In this document: in pieces, positions 1 through 50,934 of the stretch
How positions within the stretch are numbered: the stretch's first letter is position 1
Layout of the letters: every line of letters starts with the position of its first letter
DNA from: Bacteroidales bacterium
GTDB taxonomy: Bacteria > Bacteroidota > Bacteroidia > Bacteroidales > UBA7960
Length of the DNA stretch: 50,934 bases
Direction: 5' to 3'
NCBI GenBank assembly: GCA_007125585.1
Contig: SLCY01000033.1
Coordinates: 1 to 50,934, forward strand
Notes under the pieces: generated by a model
Databases searched by the model: none
What the model saw: the letters and a program-made list of their open reading frames with translations, nothing else
Told to the model about the DNA's origin: nothing
Translations under genes and position numbers: made by a program

Positions 1-13
1 CTCTTCACTCCGC

Positions 14-84
14 GCAGGCAAAGCCGCACGGCACCACCGCATGGTGGTTCTTCCCCAATGTTTACTGCCGTGCTCGTTGCCTGC
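14..84. repeat. Conserved long-hairpin element, copy A
   Basis: Nested inverted repeats are visible. Outer arms GCAGGCAA (14-21) and TTGCCTGC (77-84) enclose GCACGGCA paired with TGCCGTGC, and inside these ACCACC pairs with GGTGGT around a 4-base loop. A second copy lies at 23758-23829 with identical arms but different loop bases. The element directly precedes tandem 70-bp units, as it does in the second copy. It could be a structured RNA, a MITE-like relic or a repeat-array leader; the sequence does not decide which. Confidence 0.75.
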
Positions 85-125
85 TTGCAGATACCCGCCC
101 TGGTGAAGTGGCCTTGTTTTTGACG

Positions 126-290
126 CAGATCCATCAAAGGCGGGTTTATTCTCCCACGGGCCCGGTCAATTAAATGTTTGTGCATGCTTTACAGGCAGAT
201 CCATCAAAGGCGGGTTTATTCTCCCACGGGCCCGGTCAATTACATGTTTGTGCATGCTTTACAGGCAGATCCATCAAAGGCGGATCTGCC
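126..290. repeat. Tandem 70-bp minisatellite, cluster A
   Basis: Two full units (starting at 126 and 196) and a partial third (266 to about 285) begin with CAGATCCATCAAAGGCGG, contain CCCACGGGCCCGGTCAATTA with its palindromic CGGGCCCG core, and end in TGCATGCTTTACAGG. The period is exactly 70 bases, which is not a multiple of three, so the array does not encode a peptide repeat. The same units occur at 23871-24060 and, in reverse orientation, at 50717-50934. Confidence 0.85.
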
Positions 291-11105: not shown

Positions 11106-11490
11106 AAAGAGGCAGGCCGTCCTGTCGCGTTCTGCCGGAAGGCAGGATGAGGAAAGTCCGGGCAACACAGAGCAGCATACTTCCTAACAGGAAGCCGGCT
11201 TGCACTTGCAGGCCGAGAGAAAGTGCCACAGAAAACAACCGCCTGCGCCCGGTTCTGCCGGGCCGGCAAGGGTGAAAACGTGAGGTAAGAGCTCACGCCT
11301 TATCCGGGCGACCGGGTAAGGGGGCAAACCTTATGCGTTGAAAGGCCAAATAAACCGGGGCTTGAGGGTTGCTCGCCCAATCCCGGAGGGTAGGCCGTTA
11401 GAGGTAACACGTGAGTGTTATCCCAGATAAATGACAGGAAGCACCCCGCAGGGGGCGCCACAGAACCCGGCTTACAAGCCTGCCTCTTTC
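11106..11490 (+). ncRNA. rnpB: RNase P RNA (class A)
   Basis: The catalytic RNA of RNase P, which matures tRNA 5' ends. The P4 5' strand GAGGAAAGTCCGGGC is at 11149-11163, and the 3' conserved ACAGAACCCGGCTTAC is at 11460-11475. AGATAAATGACAG lies shortly before the 3' block, as expected. The 5' end AAAGAGGCAGGC (from 11106) pairs with GCCTGCCTCTTT (to 11489) to close P1. About 385 nt is a normal length. A run of T follows P1, giving an intrinsic terminator. It sits 33 bases before the TPR gene start. Confidence 0.95.
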
Positions 11491-21335: not shown

Positions 21336-23450
21336 TCAGTGTTTATCAGCAAGGTCAAGGATGAAGGCAAACACCCTGGCCTGCTCCCTCAGTCTCCGGA
21401 AACGACCCGAGGCACCGCTGTGCCCTGCTTCCATATTGGTATATAACAAGATTCTGGCGTCTCCCGTATGGTGTGCCCGCAGCCTGGCCACCCACTTGGT
21501 AGGTTCCCAGTACTGGACCTGCGAATCATGCAGGCCGGATGTGACCAGCATGTTTGGATAGTCCTGCCGCCGAACATTGTCGTAGGGTGAATACGAAAGC
21601 ATGTATCTGTAATACTCCGGGTCATTGGGGTTGCCCCACTCATCATATTCTGCCGTGGTAAGCGGAATGGACTCGTCCAGCATGGTGGTCACCACATCCA
21701 CAAAAGGCACGGAGGCAACGACCCCTTTGAAAAGATCGGGCCTTTCGTTGACAACAACTCCCATCAGCAGGCCACCGGCACTGCCCCCGGAGGCAAAAAG
21801 GTGTTCGGGCCCGGTATAATTTTCCTCCACAAGGAATTCAGCACAGTCAATAAAGTCGTTAAAGGTGTTCATCTTGTTCAGGAGCTTGCCGTCTTCATAC
21901 CATTGCCGTCCCATATCCTGTCCGCCCCGCACATGTGCAATGCCATAGATAAAGCCCCTGTCAAGCAGGCTGAGCGCATTTGCATTGAAACGGGGGTTGG
22001 CGCTGGAACCATAAGAGCCATAACCATAGAGCAGCAGCGGGTTGGTGCCGTCGCGGTCAACACCTTTCCGGTGCACAATGGTCAAAGGGACCGCCACCCC
22101 GTCACGCGCTTTGACATAATACCTCCTGGTTTCATAATCATCAGGAGAAAAGTCACCCACCACCTCCTGCTGCTTCACCAGGGACAACTCCCCGGTCTCC
22201 ATATGATAGTCATAGGTGGTCATCGGCGTGGTCAGTGAAGTATAGTTAAAGCGCAACACAGGCGTCGACAATTCGGCATTGATGCCGATATATGCAGTAT
22301 AGGCTTCTTCTTCAAAAGGCAGATGGTGGCTGTCGCCGGTAACCATATTGATGATGCGCATCCGGGGCAGGGCCCTTTCCCGTTCCTGAACCACCAGGTA
22401 GTCATCAAACAGCTCAACGTTCTCAAGCAGCACATCCCCGCGATGGGGGATCACCTCCTGCCAGTGCCGGATACCGGTTTGTCCTTCGGTGGCCTCCATC
22501 AGCCGAAAGTTTTCAGCCTCATGGTTTGTCAGTATATAGAACTTCCCGTTGTAAGACCACACACGATAACGCATGTCACGAAGCCGGGGATGAAAAACCC
22601 TGAAGTCTCCCTGCGGCCGGTCGGCTTCAAGCAACCATATTTCATTACTCAACGTAGCATTGGCCGTGATCATCAGGTATCGATTGTCTTTGGTTCGCGA
22701 CACGCCAAGATAATAGAATGTGTGGTCCTCCTCCTCATATACCAGCTCGGGACCTTCACCATCGAAAAAGTTATACCGGTAGATCTGATAATAACGTAAT
22801 GTTTCAGGGTCGATGGAGGTGTAGAAAAAAGTGTTGTTGTCAGCGGCCCAAACCACATCACCACCGGCATGGCTGATCCCTGTGGGGGAAACCTTGCCGG
22901 TAGCAAGGTCTTTCACCATGATGGTATACTGCCGGCGCCCGACGGTGTCGACGGAAAATGCCATCCAGCGGTTATCAAGGCTGATGTCAACCCTTCCTAC
23001 CCTGTAATAGGGATGCGGGGAGGCCAGCTCGTTGACATCCAGCATCACCTCTTCCCCAGCTTCCAGGCTGCCGGGCTTCCGGCAATAGACCGGATATTCC
23101 TTTCCCTCCTCATAACGGATATAATAGTAATATCCGTTCTCATAATAGGGCGCCGACTGGTCGTCCTGCTTTATCCTGCCCTTCATCTCCTCATACAAAC
23201 ATTCCTGCAACTCCCTGGTATGTGCGAGCTGTGTTTCCAGATAATCGTTCTCCGCCTCCAGATAAGCAATCACGTCAGGATTTTCCCTGTCGTTCATCCA
23301 GTAATAGTGATCTATCCGGGTGTCGCCGTGGATCACCAGCTGCTTTTCGTGCCTCGGAGCCACCGGCGGCTCAGCGTCGTCAGGCTTGCGCCCCGGGCCA
23401 CAAGCCATGGCCATCGTTAATAAAAGCATACATACTATTGTGTTTCTCAT
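21336..23450 (-). CDS. ptrB: Oligopeptidase B-like S9 prolyl-oligopeptidase, lipoprotein
   Basis: This 704-residue serine peptidase has an N-terminal beta-propeller (DHYYWMNDRENPDVIAYLEAEN is split by the usual family spacing) and an alpha/beta-hydrolase domain. The catalytic set is Ser557 in GGSAGG, Asp642 in SGLHDSQV and His677 in GHSGASG. A family block is RGGQDMGRQWYEDGK. An N-terminal lipobox (LLTMAMACG) makes it envelope-anchored, unlike the cytoplasmic E. coli enzyme. It would cleave oligopeptides after basic residues. It is first in a four-gene minus-strand unit and has its own promoter at 23552-23559. Confidence 0.92.
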   Translation of the reverse strand: MRNTIVCMLLLTMAMACGPGRKPDDAEPPVAPRHEKQLVIHGDTRIDHYYWMNDRENPDVIAYLEAENDYLETQLAHTRELQECLYEEMKGRIKQDDQSAPYYENGYYYYIRYEEGKEYPVYCRKPGSLEAGEEVMLDVNELASPHPYYRVGRVDISLDNRWMAFSVDTVGRRQYTIMVKDLATGKVSPTGISHAGGDVVWAADNNTFFYTSIDPETLRYYQIYRYNFFDGEGPELVYEEEDHTFYYLGVSRTKDNRYLMITANATLSNEIWLLEADRPQGDFRVFHPRLRDMRYRVWSYNGKFYILTNHEAENFRLMEATEGQTGIRHWQEVIPHRGDVLLENVELFDDYLVVQERERALPRMRIINMVTGDSHHLPFEEEAYTAYIGINAELSTPVLRFNYTSLTTPMTTYDYHMETGELSLVKQQEVVGDFSPDDYETRRYYVKARDGVAVPLTIVHRKGVDRDGTNPLLLYGYGSYGSSANPRFNANALSLLDRGFIYGIAHVRGGQDMGRQWYEDGKLLNKMNTFNDFIDCAEFLVEENYTGPEHLFASGGSAGGLLMGVVVNERPDLFKGVVASVPFVDVVTTMLDESIPLTTAEYDEWGNPNDPEYYRYMLSYSPYDNVRRQDYPNMLVTSGLHDSQVQYWEPTKWVARLRAHHTGDARILLYTNMEAGHSGASGRFRRLREQARVFAFILDLADKH

Positions 23451-23551
23451 TTCACGTGTCTTTTTATACCATCCATCATTCCGGCAGAACAGGGTCTTCC
23501 ATGACTTATGACAGAATGGTTGTTGTGGATTGATCCATCAATACATGACAT

Positions 23552-23644
23552 CAAATATACATGAATTTTTTTCGTTCGAAATTACACACAGACACATGAT
23601 AAAAATCTCAAGGTCTTTCACCCGGTCGTTGCTTGTTTATTTAT
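23552..23644 (-). promoter_or_regulatory. ptrB upstream region; copy 1 of the duplicated ~92-bp promoter segment
   Basis: Read on the minus strand, it ends in the -7 box TATATTTG (plus 23552-23559), about 100 bases before ptrB. The preceding bases match 35752-35843, including an identical stretch of more than 25 bases around GACCGGGTGAAAGACC. Similarity stops right after the -7 box in both places, so the shared part is the promoter and upstream DNA, not the transcript. Confidence 0.65.
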
Positions 23645-23662
23645 CTGGTTTTTTCCATTGTA

Positions 23663-23693
23663 CTTTTTCTTTGGCTCCCATCCAAAGAAAAAG
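23663..23693. repeat. 12-bp perfect hairpin
   Basis: CTTTTTCTTTGG (23663-23674) and CCAAAGAAAAAG (23682-23693) form a perfect 12-bp stem with a 7-base loop. It stands at one edge of composite repeat element B. It has no U-tract of terminator type and no neighbouring gene end, so I read it as part of the repeat. Confidence 0.7.
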
Positions 23694-23757
23694 CTACCAA
23701 AAAGAAAGATCACCGCTTCTGATGCATCTGCTAAAAACCACGGCCTCTTCAGTCTGC

Positions 23758-23829
23758 GCAGGCAAAGCCGCACGGCACCACCGTATGGTGGTTTTTCTCC
23801 AGATTTTTACTGCCGTGCTCGTTGCCTGC
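23758..23829. repeat. Conserved long-hairpin element, copy B
   Basis: The outer arms GCAGGCAA/TTGCCTGC, inner arms GCACGGCA/TGCCGTGC and innermost ACCACC/GGTGGT are all identical to copy A (14-84). The loop segments differ (GTAT instead of GCAT, and a different T-rich linker). Downstream, TTGCAGATACCCGCCCTG leads into the tandem units, as in copy A. Confidence 0.75.
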
Positions 23830-23870
23830 TTGCAGATACCCGCCCTGCTGAAGTGGCCTTGTTTTTGACG

Positions 23871-24060
23871 CAGATCCATCAAAGGCGGATTTATCCCCCC
23901 ACGGGCCCGATCAATTACGGATTTGTCCGCCCCACGGGCCCGGTCAATTACATGTTTGTGCATGCTTTACAGGCAGATCCATCAAAGGCGGATTTATCCC
24001 CCCACGGGCCCGATCAATTACGGATTTGTCCGCCCCACGGGCCCGGCCTTTTGCGTGTTT
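23871..24060. repeat. Minisatellite cluster B with 103-bp variant units
   Basis: Units start with CAGATCCATCAAAGGCGG at 23871 and 23974. The 103-base spacing is the 70-bp unit plus 33 extra bases carrying a second CACGGGCCCG core. The second unit is truncated and joins a copy of the flanking TTGCAGAT-CCC-CTG-TGAA-GCCTT block near 24058-24085, so the array is bracketed by imperfect direct repeats. A GGAACGA-type simple repeat (minus strand) follows at about 24088-24116. The whole 23451-24154 gap holds no gene I can support. Confidence 0.75.
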
Positions 24061-24154
24061 GCAGATGCCCACACTGTTGAAACTGCCTTTCGTTCCATCG
24101 TTCCTTCGTTCTTCCATCCTCCCTTGGCATATGTGGCTGTTGACCGGCCAGGGA

Positions 24155-24427
24155 TTATCGGACAGTAAATGTATCGGCCCTGACATGTTCCTCTTTTTCC
24201 TGTATCTCAACATGGGTTACCCTGGCCATGGCAGGGCCATGCCTGCACCATTCAATAAATCTTTTCATCCCATCTTGCTCTCCACAAGCTTCAATATAGA
24301 CACTGCCATCACGCATATTTTTTACAAATCCTTTTATCCCCAACGAAACAGCCTTTTCCCTGGTGTAATAGCGAAACGCAACACCCTGAACCTTTCCAAA
24401 GACTTGCATGCTGATAGATTGAACCAT
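24155..24427 (-). CDS. acyP: Acylphosphatase
   Basis: A 90-residue enzyme that hydrolyses acyl phosphates. It has the family signature GKVQGVAFRYYTREKA with catalytic Arg19 and GFVKNMRDGSV with catalytic Asn37, at normal family length. A -7 box (TAATTTTG, plus 24515-24522) lies about 90 bases upstream. It is downstream of rlmD on the same strand but separated by 165 bases and its own promoter. Confidence 0.93.
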   Translation of the reverse strand: MVQSISMQVFGKVQGVAFRYYTREKAVSLGIKGFVKNMRDGSVYIEACGEQDGMKRFIEWCRHGPAMARVTHVEIQEKEEHVRADTFTVR

Positions 24428-35409: not shown

Positions 35410-35606
35410 CAGAAAAACCAAGAATTGTTTATTGGTTGTTATAGCCCGCATCTCTTTTGCCCGCTCAACATCCACTGACATGCCCCGGATCGCACACCGC
35501 CAACCGCGAAAAACAAAGCGTTGTGAATGTTGCAACAAGCCACAAATCCATTATATTTCTCCGGTAAAAAAAACACCAGCATTTTGTATGTTGACAGATG
35601 ACGGAA

Positions 35607-35723
35607 GAACGATGGAACGATTGAACGATGGAACGAATCTTTTGGGCATTGGCTGTAAACTATTGGCTTTTAAACCCTTAAACTTTTAAACCCTTAAACT
35701 TTTAAACTTTTAAACCCTTAAAC
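35607..35723. repeat. Simple-sequence tracts: GAACGATG x4 and TTAAAC-type heptamer/octamer array
   Basis: Bases 35607-35638 are four near-copies of GAACGATG. From about 35667 to 35723, TTTTAAAC and CCTTAAAC alternate about seven times. Similar GGAACGA tracts flank repeat clusters B and C. The 35410-36002 gap has no gene; it also holds the duplicated promoter segment and a second -7 box. Confidence 0.7.
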
Positions 35724-35751
35724 CTCTCTGACCTTTTGACAAATGATAAAC

Positions 35752-35843
35752 ATAAATAAACAAGCAACGACCGGGTGAAAGACCTTGAGCGGTTTTTCAT
35801 CCGTCTGTGTGTGATTTTACAAAAAAAATAACATGTACATTTG
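35752..35843 (+). promoter_or_regulatory. Copy 2 of the duplicated ~92-bp promoter segment, upstream of the V-ATPase operon
   Basis: It matches the minus strand of 23552-23644 at roughly 80% identity by eye, with the block CAACGACCGGGTGAAAGACC fully conserved. It ends at the -7 box TACATTTG (35836-35843). It points toward the V-ATPase genes, whose first codon lies about 160 bases on. Confidence 0.65.
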
Positions 35844-50480: not shown

Positions 50481-50716
50481 ATTTTGTTCTTTTATTTATT
50501 GGTTCGACAATGAATGGTGCATGCAAGTGTGTCAGCATTTACATAAAAGACAACAAAAGCCCCATAAGGTTTAATGCCCCTGTAAATTCATCCAAAAAAA
50601 CCCATGTTGTTTAACAGAGATTAACGTTTCTGAAAAACAGCGGTAGCAGTTCGGTTAAGTATCACTGCATGACAAAAGGCCTAAAACGAAGGAACGAAGA
50701 TACGAAAGGCCGTTTC

Positions 50717-50934
50717 AACATCGCAGGCCTGTACAAACACGTAATTGACCGGGCCCGTGGAAGGATAAATCCGCCTTTGATGAATCTGCCTGTAAAGCAT
50801 GCACAAACATGTAATTGACCGGGCCCGTGGGGAGATTAATCCGCCTTTGATGAATCTGCCTGTAAAGCATGCACAAACATGTAATTGACCGGGCCCGTGG
50901 GAGAATAAACCCGCCTTTGATAGATCTGCCTGTA
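50717..50934. repeat. Minisatellite cluster C, inverted relative to cluster A
   Basis: Read on the minus strand, units begin at 50928, 50858 and 50787 (spacings 70 and 71) with CAGAT(C/T)(C/T)ATCAAAGGCGG and contain the CACGGGCCCGGTCAATTAC core. The outermost unit (50928-50859) carries the same GGGTTTATTCTCCC variant as the unit at 196-265. The array ends near 50717 and is followed toward the gene by a TGTTGAAAC-GCCTTTCG block and a GGAACGA tract (50685-50712), as in cluster B. The remaining part of the gap, 50481-50684, shows nothing recognisable. Confidence 0.8.

Follow-up and report, generated by a model that had tools for sequence, protein, structure and literature searches.

A dispersed palindrome-hairpin element conserved by its fold in Bacteroidales

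The composite repeat described at positions 23743-24116 of the window, the whole stretch of 50,934 nucleotides of Bacteroidales DNA that was analysed, is real, and the element at its core is conserved by its fold. This element is a non-coding dispersed repeat of about 225 nt, made of a small palindrome, an A-rich linker and an imperfect hairpin of 180 nt. It is multicopy, lies outside called genes and keeps a nearly constant length across families. The letters of the stem have been replaced through compensatory changes with the pairing kept, and the loop of the palindrome and the first hairpin base vary in concert. Relatives with the same fold and very different letters are present in several families, which suggests an undescribed mobile element, unable to move alone. 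The modules named in a preliminary description of the sequence, and their order, are present and recur across the genome far beyond chance; its proposal that the repeats are not random but belong to a structured RNA or to a defined non-autonomous element is supported by the copies in relatives and by strong covariation.

Layout of the composite and fold of its core

The window is contig C95 in its full length, with both ends in repeats, and the source assembly comprises 2.57 Mb in 120 contigs. The module map has revealed the order a - g - b - c - d - e(n) - f - g, with parts absent at many places (Table 1). By folding, the second half of b, together with c, d and the start of e, was found to be a single imperfect hairpin of 180 nt, whose 5' arm begins at 23709 and whose 3' arm spans the TTGCAGATACCC block and ends inside the first repeat unit, at 23888, the outer arms being inverted repeats of about 20 bp. 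When the segment 23690-23900 was folded, z-scores of -7.76 (RNA) and -7.56 (DNA) were obtained and none of 200 shuffled sequences was as stable, either as RNA or as DNA. A long nested hairpin had been placed at 23758-23829; the hairpin stands, but not these limits. No separate hairpin of 12 bp, as proposed at 23743, was found, the bases there being part of the 180-nt stem. The interval 23743-24116 is indeed composite, but its core is shifted and misses the 31-nt palindrome and the linker, both of which are conserved together with the hairpin in other genomes.

Table 1. Features of the window, with coordinates, strand and basis.
Feature	Position	Strand	Basis or remark
Element A: truncated hairpin (1-110), then about 2.3 70-nt units	1..285	+	Cut by contig start
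Flanking gene, prolyl oligopeptidase family	21336..23450	-	Pfam PF02897, PF00326
Module a: dispersed promoter-like repeat, ends in TATATTTG (23552-23559, minus strand)	23552..23644	-	Adjoins the hairpin element; separate repeat
Small palindrome CTTTTTCTTTGG(CTCCCAT)CCAAAGAAAAAG, 31 nt	23663..23693	+	Counterpart before the hairpin in 41/45 copies examined
A-rich linker CTACCAAAAAGAAAG	23694..23708	+	
Imperfect hairpin, 180 nt, conserved core	23709..23888	+	Fold z-scores, covariance models R1/R2, pair counts
Tandem array of 70-nt/33-nt units	23870..24045	+	Tandem Repeats Finder 23886-24045; module map
Module f: diverged copy of the hairpin's inner 3'-arm block	24046..24086	+	Module map
Module g: GGAACGA/TTCGTTCC short-period tract	24087..24116	+	Module map
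Flanking gene, acylphosphatase	24155..24409	-	Pfam PF00708
Second copy of module a, with TACATTTG	35752..35843	-	
Element C: about 2.9 units, diverged block and tract, reversed	50685..50934	-	Cut by contig end

The sequence GCAGATCCATCAAAGGCGG, the terminal 3' arm of the hairpin, is present in each 70-nt GGGCCC unit, and the last 19 bases of the hairpin are copied in every one of these units, which look like tandem growth at the hairpin 3' end. Module f gave 20 matches in the scanned loci, part of which are cross-hits to the block within the hairpin.

Module a, which stands upstream of the prolyl oligopeptidase gene, gave at least 48 matches in the source genome (40 of 106 candidates were scored). 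With a pattern fixing CATGTA..TTT, 25 distinct cores were collected, and 19 of them carry the final G of TAnnTTTG, the Bacteroidota -7 box. The core of 54 nt closes with TATATTTG or a variant of it, a short distance ahead of genes whose functions are unrelated (by eye, gyrB-, thioredoxin- and Nif3-like). The two palindrome arms of the repeat have changed in step in many copies, though not in all (CATTCG/CGAATG, CATGTG/CACATG), and matches were found in 11 of 21 genus genomes, source genome included. At five loci (L050, L089, L097, L055 and L059) two module a copies enclose an inverted repeat, in most copies CTCCTGTA..CATTTTGT..ACAAAATG..TACAGGAG, and short-period arrays (TTTAAGGG, GAACGATG, GCCAATAGC) lie between modules a and b at window positions 35601-35724 and at many loci.

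Copies in the source genome and in relatives, and covariation

In the source assembly at least 55 matches were obtained for the 374-nt interval reported, with 40 of 81 first-look candidates scored, and at least 57 for the stretch on its left (23560-23745), again with 40 candidates scored; both counts are therefore lower bounds. The conserved order pointed out earlier at three loci, elements A, B and C, does recur, but these are only three of dozens of places. By our own reading, the palindrome-hairpin part contains at least 13 of the contig ends in the 120-contig assembly.

A covariance model, R1, was built from 14 copies and gave 30 matches in the source genome, 10 of them full-length hairpins above 170 bits and some of the remainder the same palindrome on the other strand. 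Copies were found with it in 7 of 21 genus genomes and, under stricter filters, in 2 of 198 genomes of the order, which are the source genome and G485, a member of another family. A second model, R2, built from 23 copies of five genomes with the small palindrome outside the model, was applied to genomes of the Bacteroidales order and to five plasmid loci. It gave 51 matches in 16 of 393 order genomes, source included, corresponding to 14 of 207 genera and 10 families. The further copies looked for in relatives have therefore been found with both models, whose E-values are rough; in the weakest genomes (G572, G580, G644 and G782) the best values range from 3e-5 to 3e-9. The palindrome, absent from R2, is also present in G572, G580 and G644, loci L227 and L235 of G782 being outside the palindrome survey. 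The exact palindrome pattern was matched in 1 of 395 phylum genomes, the source genome only, and a pattern search of genome contigs gave seven contigs from three metagenome-assembled genomes.

The G485 genome carries nine copies, each of exactly 180 nt, eight of which have a palindrome and linker of the same type; L185 is a copy with the palindrome lost, and L188 was counted as a genuine copy. At the G485 loci L181-L187 and L189, one of two other repeats follows on the 3' side of the hairpin. Each of these ends in its own palindrome (ACTTTTTGTCGTCACAAAAAGT; CTTTTGC..GCAAAAG type), one has a long hairpin, and they are further repeats of the same plan as the palindrome-hairpin element. A pattern for a second G485 repeat matched 0 of 395 phylum genomes, a sample without G485 and silent on structural relatives.

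Palindrome and hairpin are also present in the genus-mates G001 and G010, with no GGGCCC units after them at the loci displayed, and GGAACGA-type tracts occur in the genus-mate G009 at other places. The minisatellite, the GGAACGA tract and the bracketing direct repeats, which had been regarded as parts of the element, are absent after the hairpin at the loci displayed from other genomes and thus fall outside the conserved element. A minisatellite or random repeats as such were ruled out, since the hairpin recurs without them at those loci.

Covarying base pairs were sought in the stem and strong covariation was found in two alignments, A2 and A3. Locus L154 was left out of A2, and short or truncated copies (L058, L162 and those cut by contig ends) were kept out of the alignments. 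In A2, 96.2% of 1030 cells were paired, against 33-45% with the partner slid, and both sides had changed in 20 of 45 pairs. The 13 genomes outside the R2 training set hold 36 of the 51 R2 matches, and loci for 22 of these 36 were used to form A3, which comprises 24 matches, a second copy being present at two loci. In this alignment, 89.9% of 980 cells were paired, against 34-45% when slid, compensatory changes on both sides were present in 41 of 45 pairs, and the covariation score was 0.625 against 0.168 shuffled; A3 leans towards structure because the alignment was fitted to the model, and relatedness inflates the shuffle control in both A2 and A3. Cells with G-T numbered 7 of 1030 in A2 and 14 of 994 in A3 (0.7% and 1.4%) and those with A-C 9 and 39, G-T not being in excess of A-C. 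As G-T cells are few, with no plus-strand excess, selection would act on a DNA fold and not on plus-strand RNA, and between DNA and RNA single-stranded DNA is tentatively preferred.

A permissive parsing rule was applied to the sequence before the hairpin in 45 copies, with no shuffled control for the palindrome, and by our classing a standard palindrome stands there in 41. L054, L062, L185 and L233 were excluded from the loop-foot test because their palindrome was misparsed, replaced or lost. Most standard loops are of 6 nt (CTTGAN) or 7 nt (mostly CNNCCAY), and five copies have a longer linker of 19-38 nt. The foot of the hairpin reads NTC in all 41 standard copies, and the last loop base complements the first hairpin base in 37 of them. 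When distinct genome/loop/foot combinations were counted, 25 of 29 were complementary, against a shuffled mean of 11.1 (0 of 10,000 shuffles reached this value), and with one copy per genome (17) the mean longest loop-foot match was 4.18, against 3.06 shuffled (0 of 2000).

The extent of this pairing varies between classes. Within the TCAAG class the loop complements at least six hairpin-start bases in 12 of 15 (CTTGAT/ATCAAG, CTTGAC/GTCAAG, CTTGAA/TTCAAG), both G009 copies show a GGCGAT/ATCGCC match, and loop and foot base switch together in eight of eight G485 copies (CAT/ATC; CAC or TAC/GTC); the window's own class (loop CTCCCAT, foot ATCACC) has two loop-foot pairs only. A further alignment, A5, was made from the 8 of 13 TCAAG-class segments that are equal in length. 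For the palindrome stem and the loop-foot pairing taken together, 97.3% of its cells were paired, against 38-55% when slid; seven of the eight both-side changes are in the palindrome stem, and one of the six loop-foot pairs has a both-side change.

Plasmid and phage sequences were also searched. The window as query gave no plasmid match and three 41-nt phage matches, L182 against plasmids and L232 against phages gave none, and a viral search by pattern returned 0 with a narrow pattern that fits only 9 of the 249 loci collected. With L218 as query, plasmid matches of 38-50 nt were obtained over the head (palindrome, linker and foot), at 17 places in all, on four plasmids of Persicobacter sp. 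JZB09 (Cytophagales) and one of Ilyobacter polytropus (Fusobacteriota). The five plasmid loci (L250-L254, positions 690-960) all have CTTGAT, a linker and ATCAAGGC, and a long hairpin of other sequence follows the head in L250, L251, L253 and L254, L252 being unclear; R2 matched none of the five. The plasmids with this head are complete and come from two other orders, one of them in another phylum. Because these loci were found by similarity to the head, their loop-foot pairing is no independent evidence, and the palindrome-hairpin plan may be wider than the R2 family. For the window's own element, a virus, plasmid or phage origin has no support from these searches, in which only the related head was seen on plasmids.

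Genomic position, mobiliser search and possible explanations

None of 32 copies overlaps a called gene, the calls coming from a crude codon-score caller that was trained on the window, overlooked the short gene for acylphosphatase and performs unreliably on G485, which is AT-rich. The called genes of the source genome read away from the element in 11 of 13 cases on the palindrome side and point away from it in 11 of 17 on the 3' side. Other genomes show mixed orientation, with five of nine called palindrome-side genes directed towards the element and four away, and the neighbours of the element vary outside the source genome. At the L031 site the element is present in G001 and absent at the orthologous site in G010 and G003 (flanks of 79-87% identity), where GGTTAAG/GATTGAG short-period arrays fill the slot at the G001 hairpin site; because these element-less sites carry other repeats, ends and target duplication are unreadable there (two genomes compared). 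One pair of copies in L216 is head-to-head and one in L236 is direct, and the G485 hairpins adjoin other palindrome-hairpin repeats.

The earlier remark that no transposase is present agrees with the finding of 0 Y1 transposases (PF01797) in the source genome and of none among the Pfam matches of ten window proteins; the genome-wide transposase search covered the Y1 class. Y1 genes were detected in 8 of 22 genomes, namely three of eight hairpin bearers (G001, G011 and G485) and five of 14 non-bearers, so no association between Y1 genes and the hairpin is apparent. R2 gave 0 matches at the 12 Y1 places retrieved out of 13 (43.5 kb), where some contigs end near the gene and none is a known subclass 2.6 RAYT. 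A Y1-like frame was read by eye in 8 of the 12 Y1 loci, seven IS200-like and one of the YIxDNP type, and a subclass-2.6-like motif (YIHxNP near an HxH motif) was found in none of 250 sequences (743 kb). An association with RAYT genes is unsupported by the Y1 counts, the Y1 loci and the motif scan, PF01797 being a profile that may miss subclass 2.6.

The reading preferred here, tentatively and with a little less than even confidence, is that of a non-autonomous mobile element that would work as a folded strand in trans, by analogy with the logic of REPs and IS200. An enzyme acting in trans would recognise the folded single strand and not the duplex sequence, as in the logic of IS200/IS605 ends and REPs, and the loop 'CTTGAN' and the foot 'NTCAAG' may be related like the guide and cleavage site of IS200/IS605. 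Copies in the source genome would later have gained the tandem 70-nt units on their 3' side and come to adjoin the promoter-like repeat, giving the composite reported. In its favour are the copies in several genomes, the covariation of the stem, the loop-foot complementarity, the intergenic position, the absence of the element from the orthologous site in two genus-mates and the small number of G-T cells. The mobiliser search, with none found in the Y1 class and no Y1-hairpin association, counts against this reading, as do the restriction of the six-base loop-foot pairing to part of the copies, the one both-side change in the loop-foot helix, the weaker structures that PMC6006769 ascribes to subclass 2.6 and the unreadable ends at the one site compared. 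It is distinctly unlikely that the element represents an undescribed mobile class of Bacteroidales, perhaps wider, that works as a folded single strand, in which the loop pairs with the foot of the long hairpin (a pseudoknot) and the shape is recognised by a dedicated enzyme, neither a known RAYT nor a known insertion-sequence transposase.

The main rival, itself rather unlikely, is a multicopy structured RNA, cis-regulatory or free, in which palindrome, A-rich linker and foot would form an H-type pseudoknot before a long stem with conserved internal loops. Partly unpaired hairpin motifs conserved across families (CTaCg, aAgCCgT, ACTCG and TGCTt) agree with such an RNA, as does the loop-foot pairing, which has H-type pseudoknot order and an A-rich third loop. 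A minus-strand RNA would accord with the more stable folding of the minus strand in 24 of 24 copies, flanks included (L157 was excluded from this count and from later analyses), and with the A-C cells, which outnumber G-T by 39 to 14 in A3. These arguments conflict, because the pseudoknot order suits the plus strand and the energy and A-C asymmetry the minus strand. Against an RNA, G-U pairs are rare at the frequencies given above, neighbours and orientation are variable outside the source genome, the element is missing from the orthologous site in two genus-mates, and no Rfam match was obtained.

For the latter point, Rfam 15 returned RNase P only over the whole window at gathering thresholds, seven matches for 23500-24130 to E = 10, none near gathering score, and, for ten further loci, nothing but a SAM riboswitch that lies apart from the hairpin, so that a known RNA family was ruled out by the absence of a match. 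The RNase P RNA is of bacterial class A and lies at window positions 11109-11490 on the plus strand; a SAM riboswitch lies at L219:1188-1295, about 200 nt from a hairpin copy in G611.

Improbable is a classical MITE, that is, an insertion-sequence deletion derivative with the outer ends of the hairpin as terminal inverted repeats, mobilised by a DDE transposase. The element is non-coding, intergenic and multicopy and has a suitable size, all in agreement with the description in the available text of PMC3733652, and its outer arms form inverted repeats of about 20 bp. However, the whole 180 nt are paired with compensatory changes, of which terminal repeats alone need none, conservation across families extends to the internal motifs, the small palindrome that lies outside the hairpin is likewise conserved, and no target duplication was readable at the one site compared in two genomes. 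Slightly less probable again is a passive intergenic repeat, acting as a terminator or as a site for supercoiling or nucleoid proteins, that would have spread not by transposition but through recombination among intergenic regions. The whole intergenic blocks (a, g, palindrome, hairpin, units) that recur in the same order in the source genome, and its 11 of 13 palindrome-side genes reading away, would conform to this, whereas hairpin length and fold are kept in families without the other blocks seen beside the hairpin, and orientation outside the source genome is mixed (five towards and four away, of nine).

If the element is indeed a mobile one working as a folded strand, part of the intergenic clutter that breaks Bacteroidales assemblies would be one structural family, with its fold kept and its letters rewritten. 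The covariance model and the loop-foot rule would then allow the element to be easily counted and dated and its mobiliser to be sought.

Comparison with known systems

No description of the element was found in the literature on Bacteroidetes repeats, as covered mostly by open-access main texts. The BrickBuilt/MITE repeats of Porphyromonas gingivalis are similar in being non-coding interspersed Bacteroidales repeats that coincide with assembly gaps, but their descriptions in the available text of PMC5771137 mention no such fold, and the two are set apart by description, not by sequence. Bacterial MITEs, which include RUP, NEMIS and ERIC according to the available part of PMC3733652, share with the element its non-coding nature, a size of about 70-300 bp, the intergenic position, the multicopy state and the strong secondary structure. 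The element has inverted repeats at its ends, no coding capacity and a length within 70-300 bp, its inverted repeat being the whole hairpin; in contrast to a MITE, selection acts on the whole fold and not on the ends.

In IS200/IS605 the enzyme binds a hairpin, at whose foot a short guide base-pairs with the cleavage site, as presented in the available text of PMC8266576. The element resembles these ends in its imperfect hairpin and in the short upstream sequence complementary to the foot. It differs in that this upstream sequence is the loop of a second hairpin, in a pairing of up to six bases in one class, and in having no tnpA or tnpB inside.

REPs, in the available text of PMC3733652, are palindromes of 20-40 bp that end in an unpaired GTAG or CGTC. 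With REPs and REPINs the element shares dispersed palindromes in intergenic positions, imperfect hairpins and copies specific to a lineage. Its hairpin of 180 nt, however, far exceeds the 20-40 bp given there, and its foot reads NTC instead of GTAG or CGTC, although subclass 2.6 structures reportedly lack GT[AG]G too. No RAYT gene was found in the source genome with PF01797 (0 matches; the profile may miss subclass 2.6), and no copies flanking a RAYT gene were found with R2 at the 12 Y1 places retrieved out of 13, none of them a known subclass 2.6 RAYT. As the element failed these tests, it is not classed as a REP.

The closest published observation, compared by description, is that of PMC6006769, in whose available text the Bacteroidetes subclass 2.6 RAYT genes are flanked by 'atypical secondary structures' that have copies elsewhere in the genome and are devoid of GT[AG]G. 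Those structures are characterised there as weaker than usual, in contrast to the strong hairpin of the element, which may supply sequence and structure for them. In some respects, the element resembles a REP or an IS200 end.
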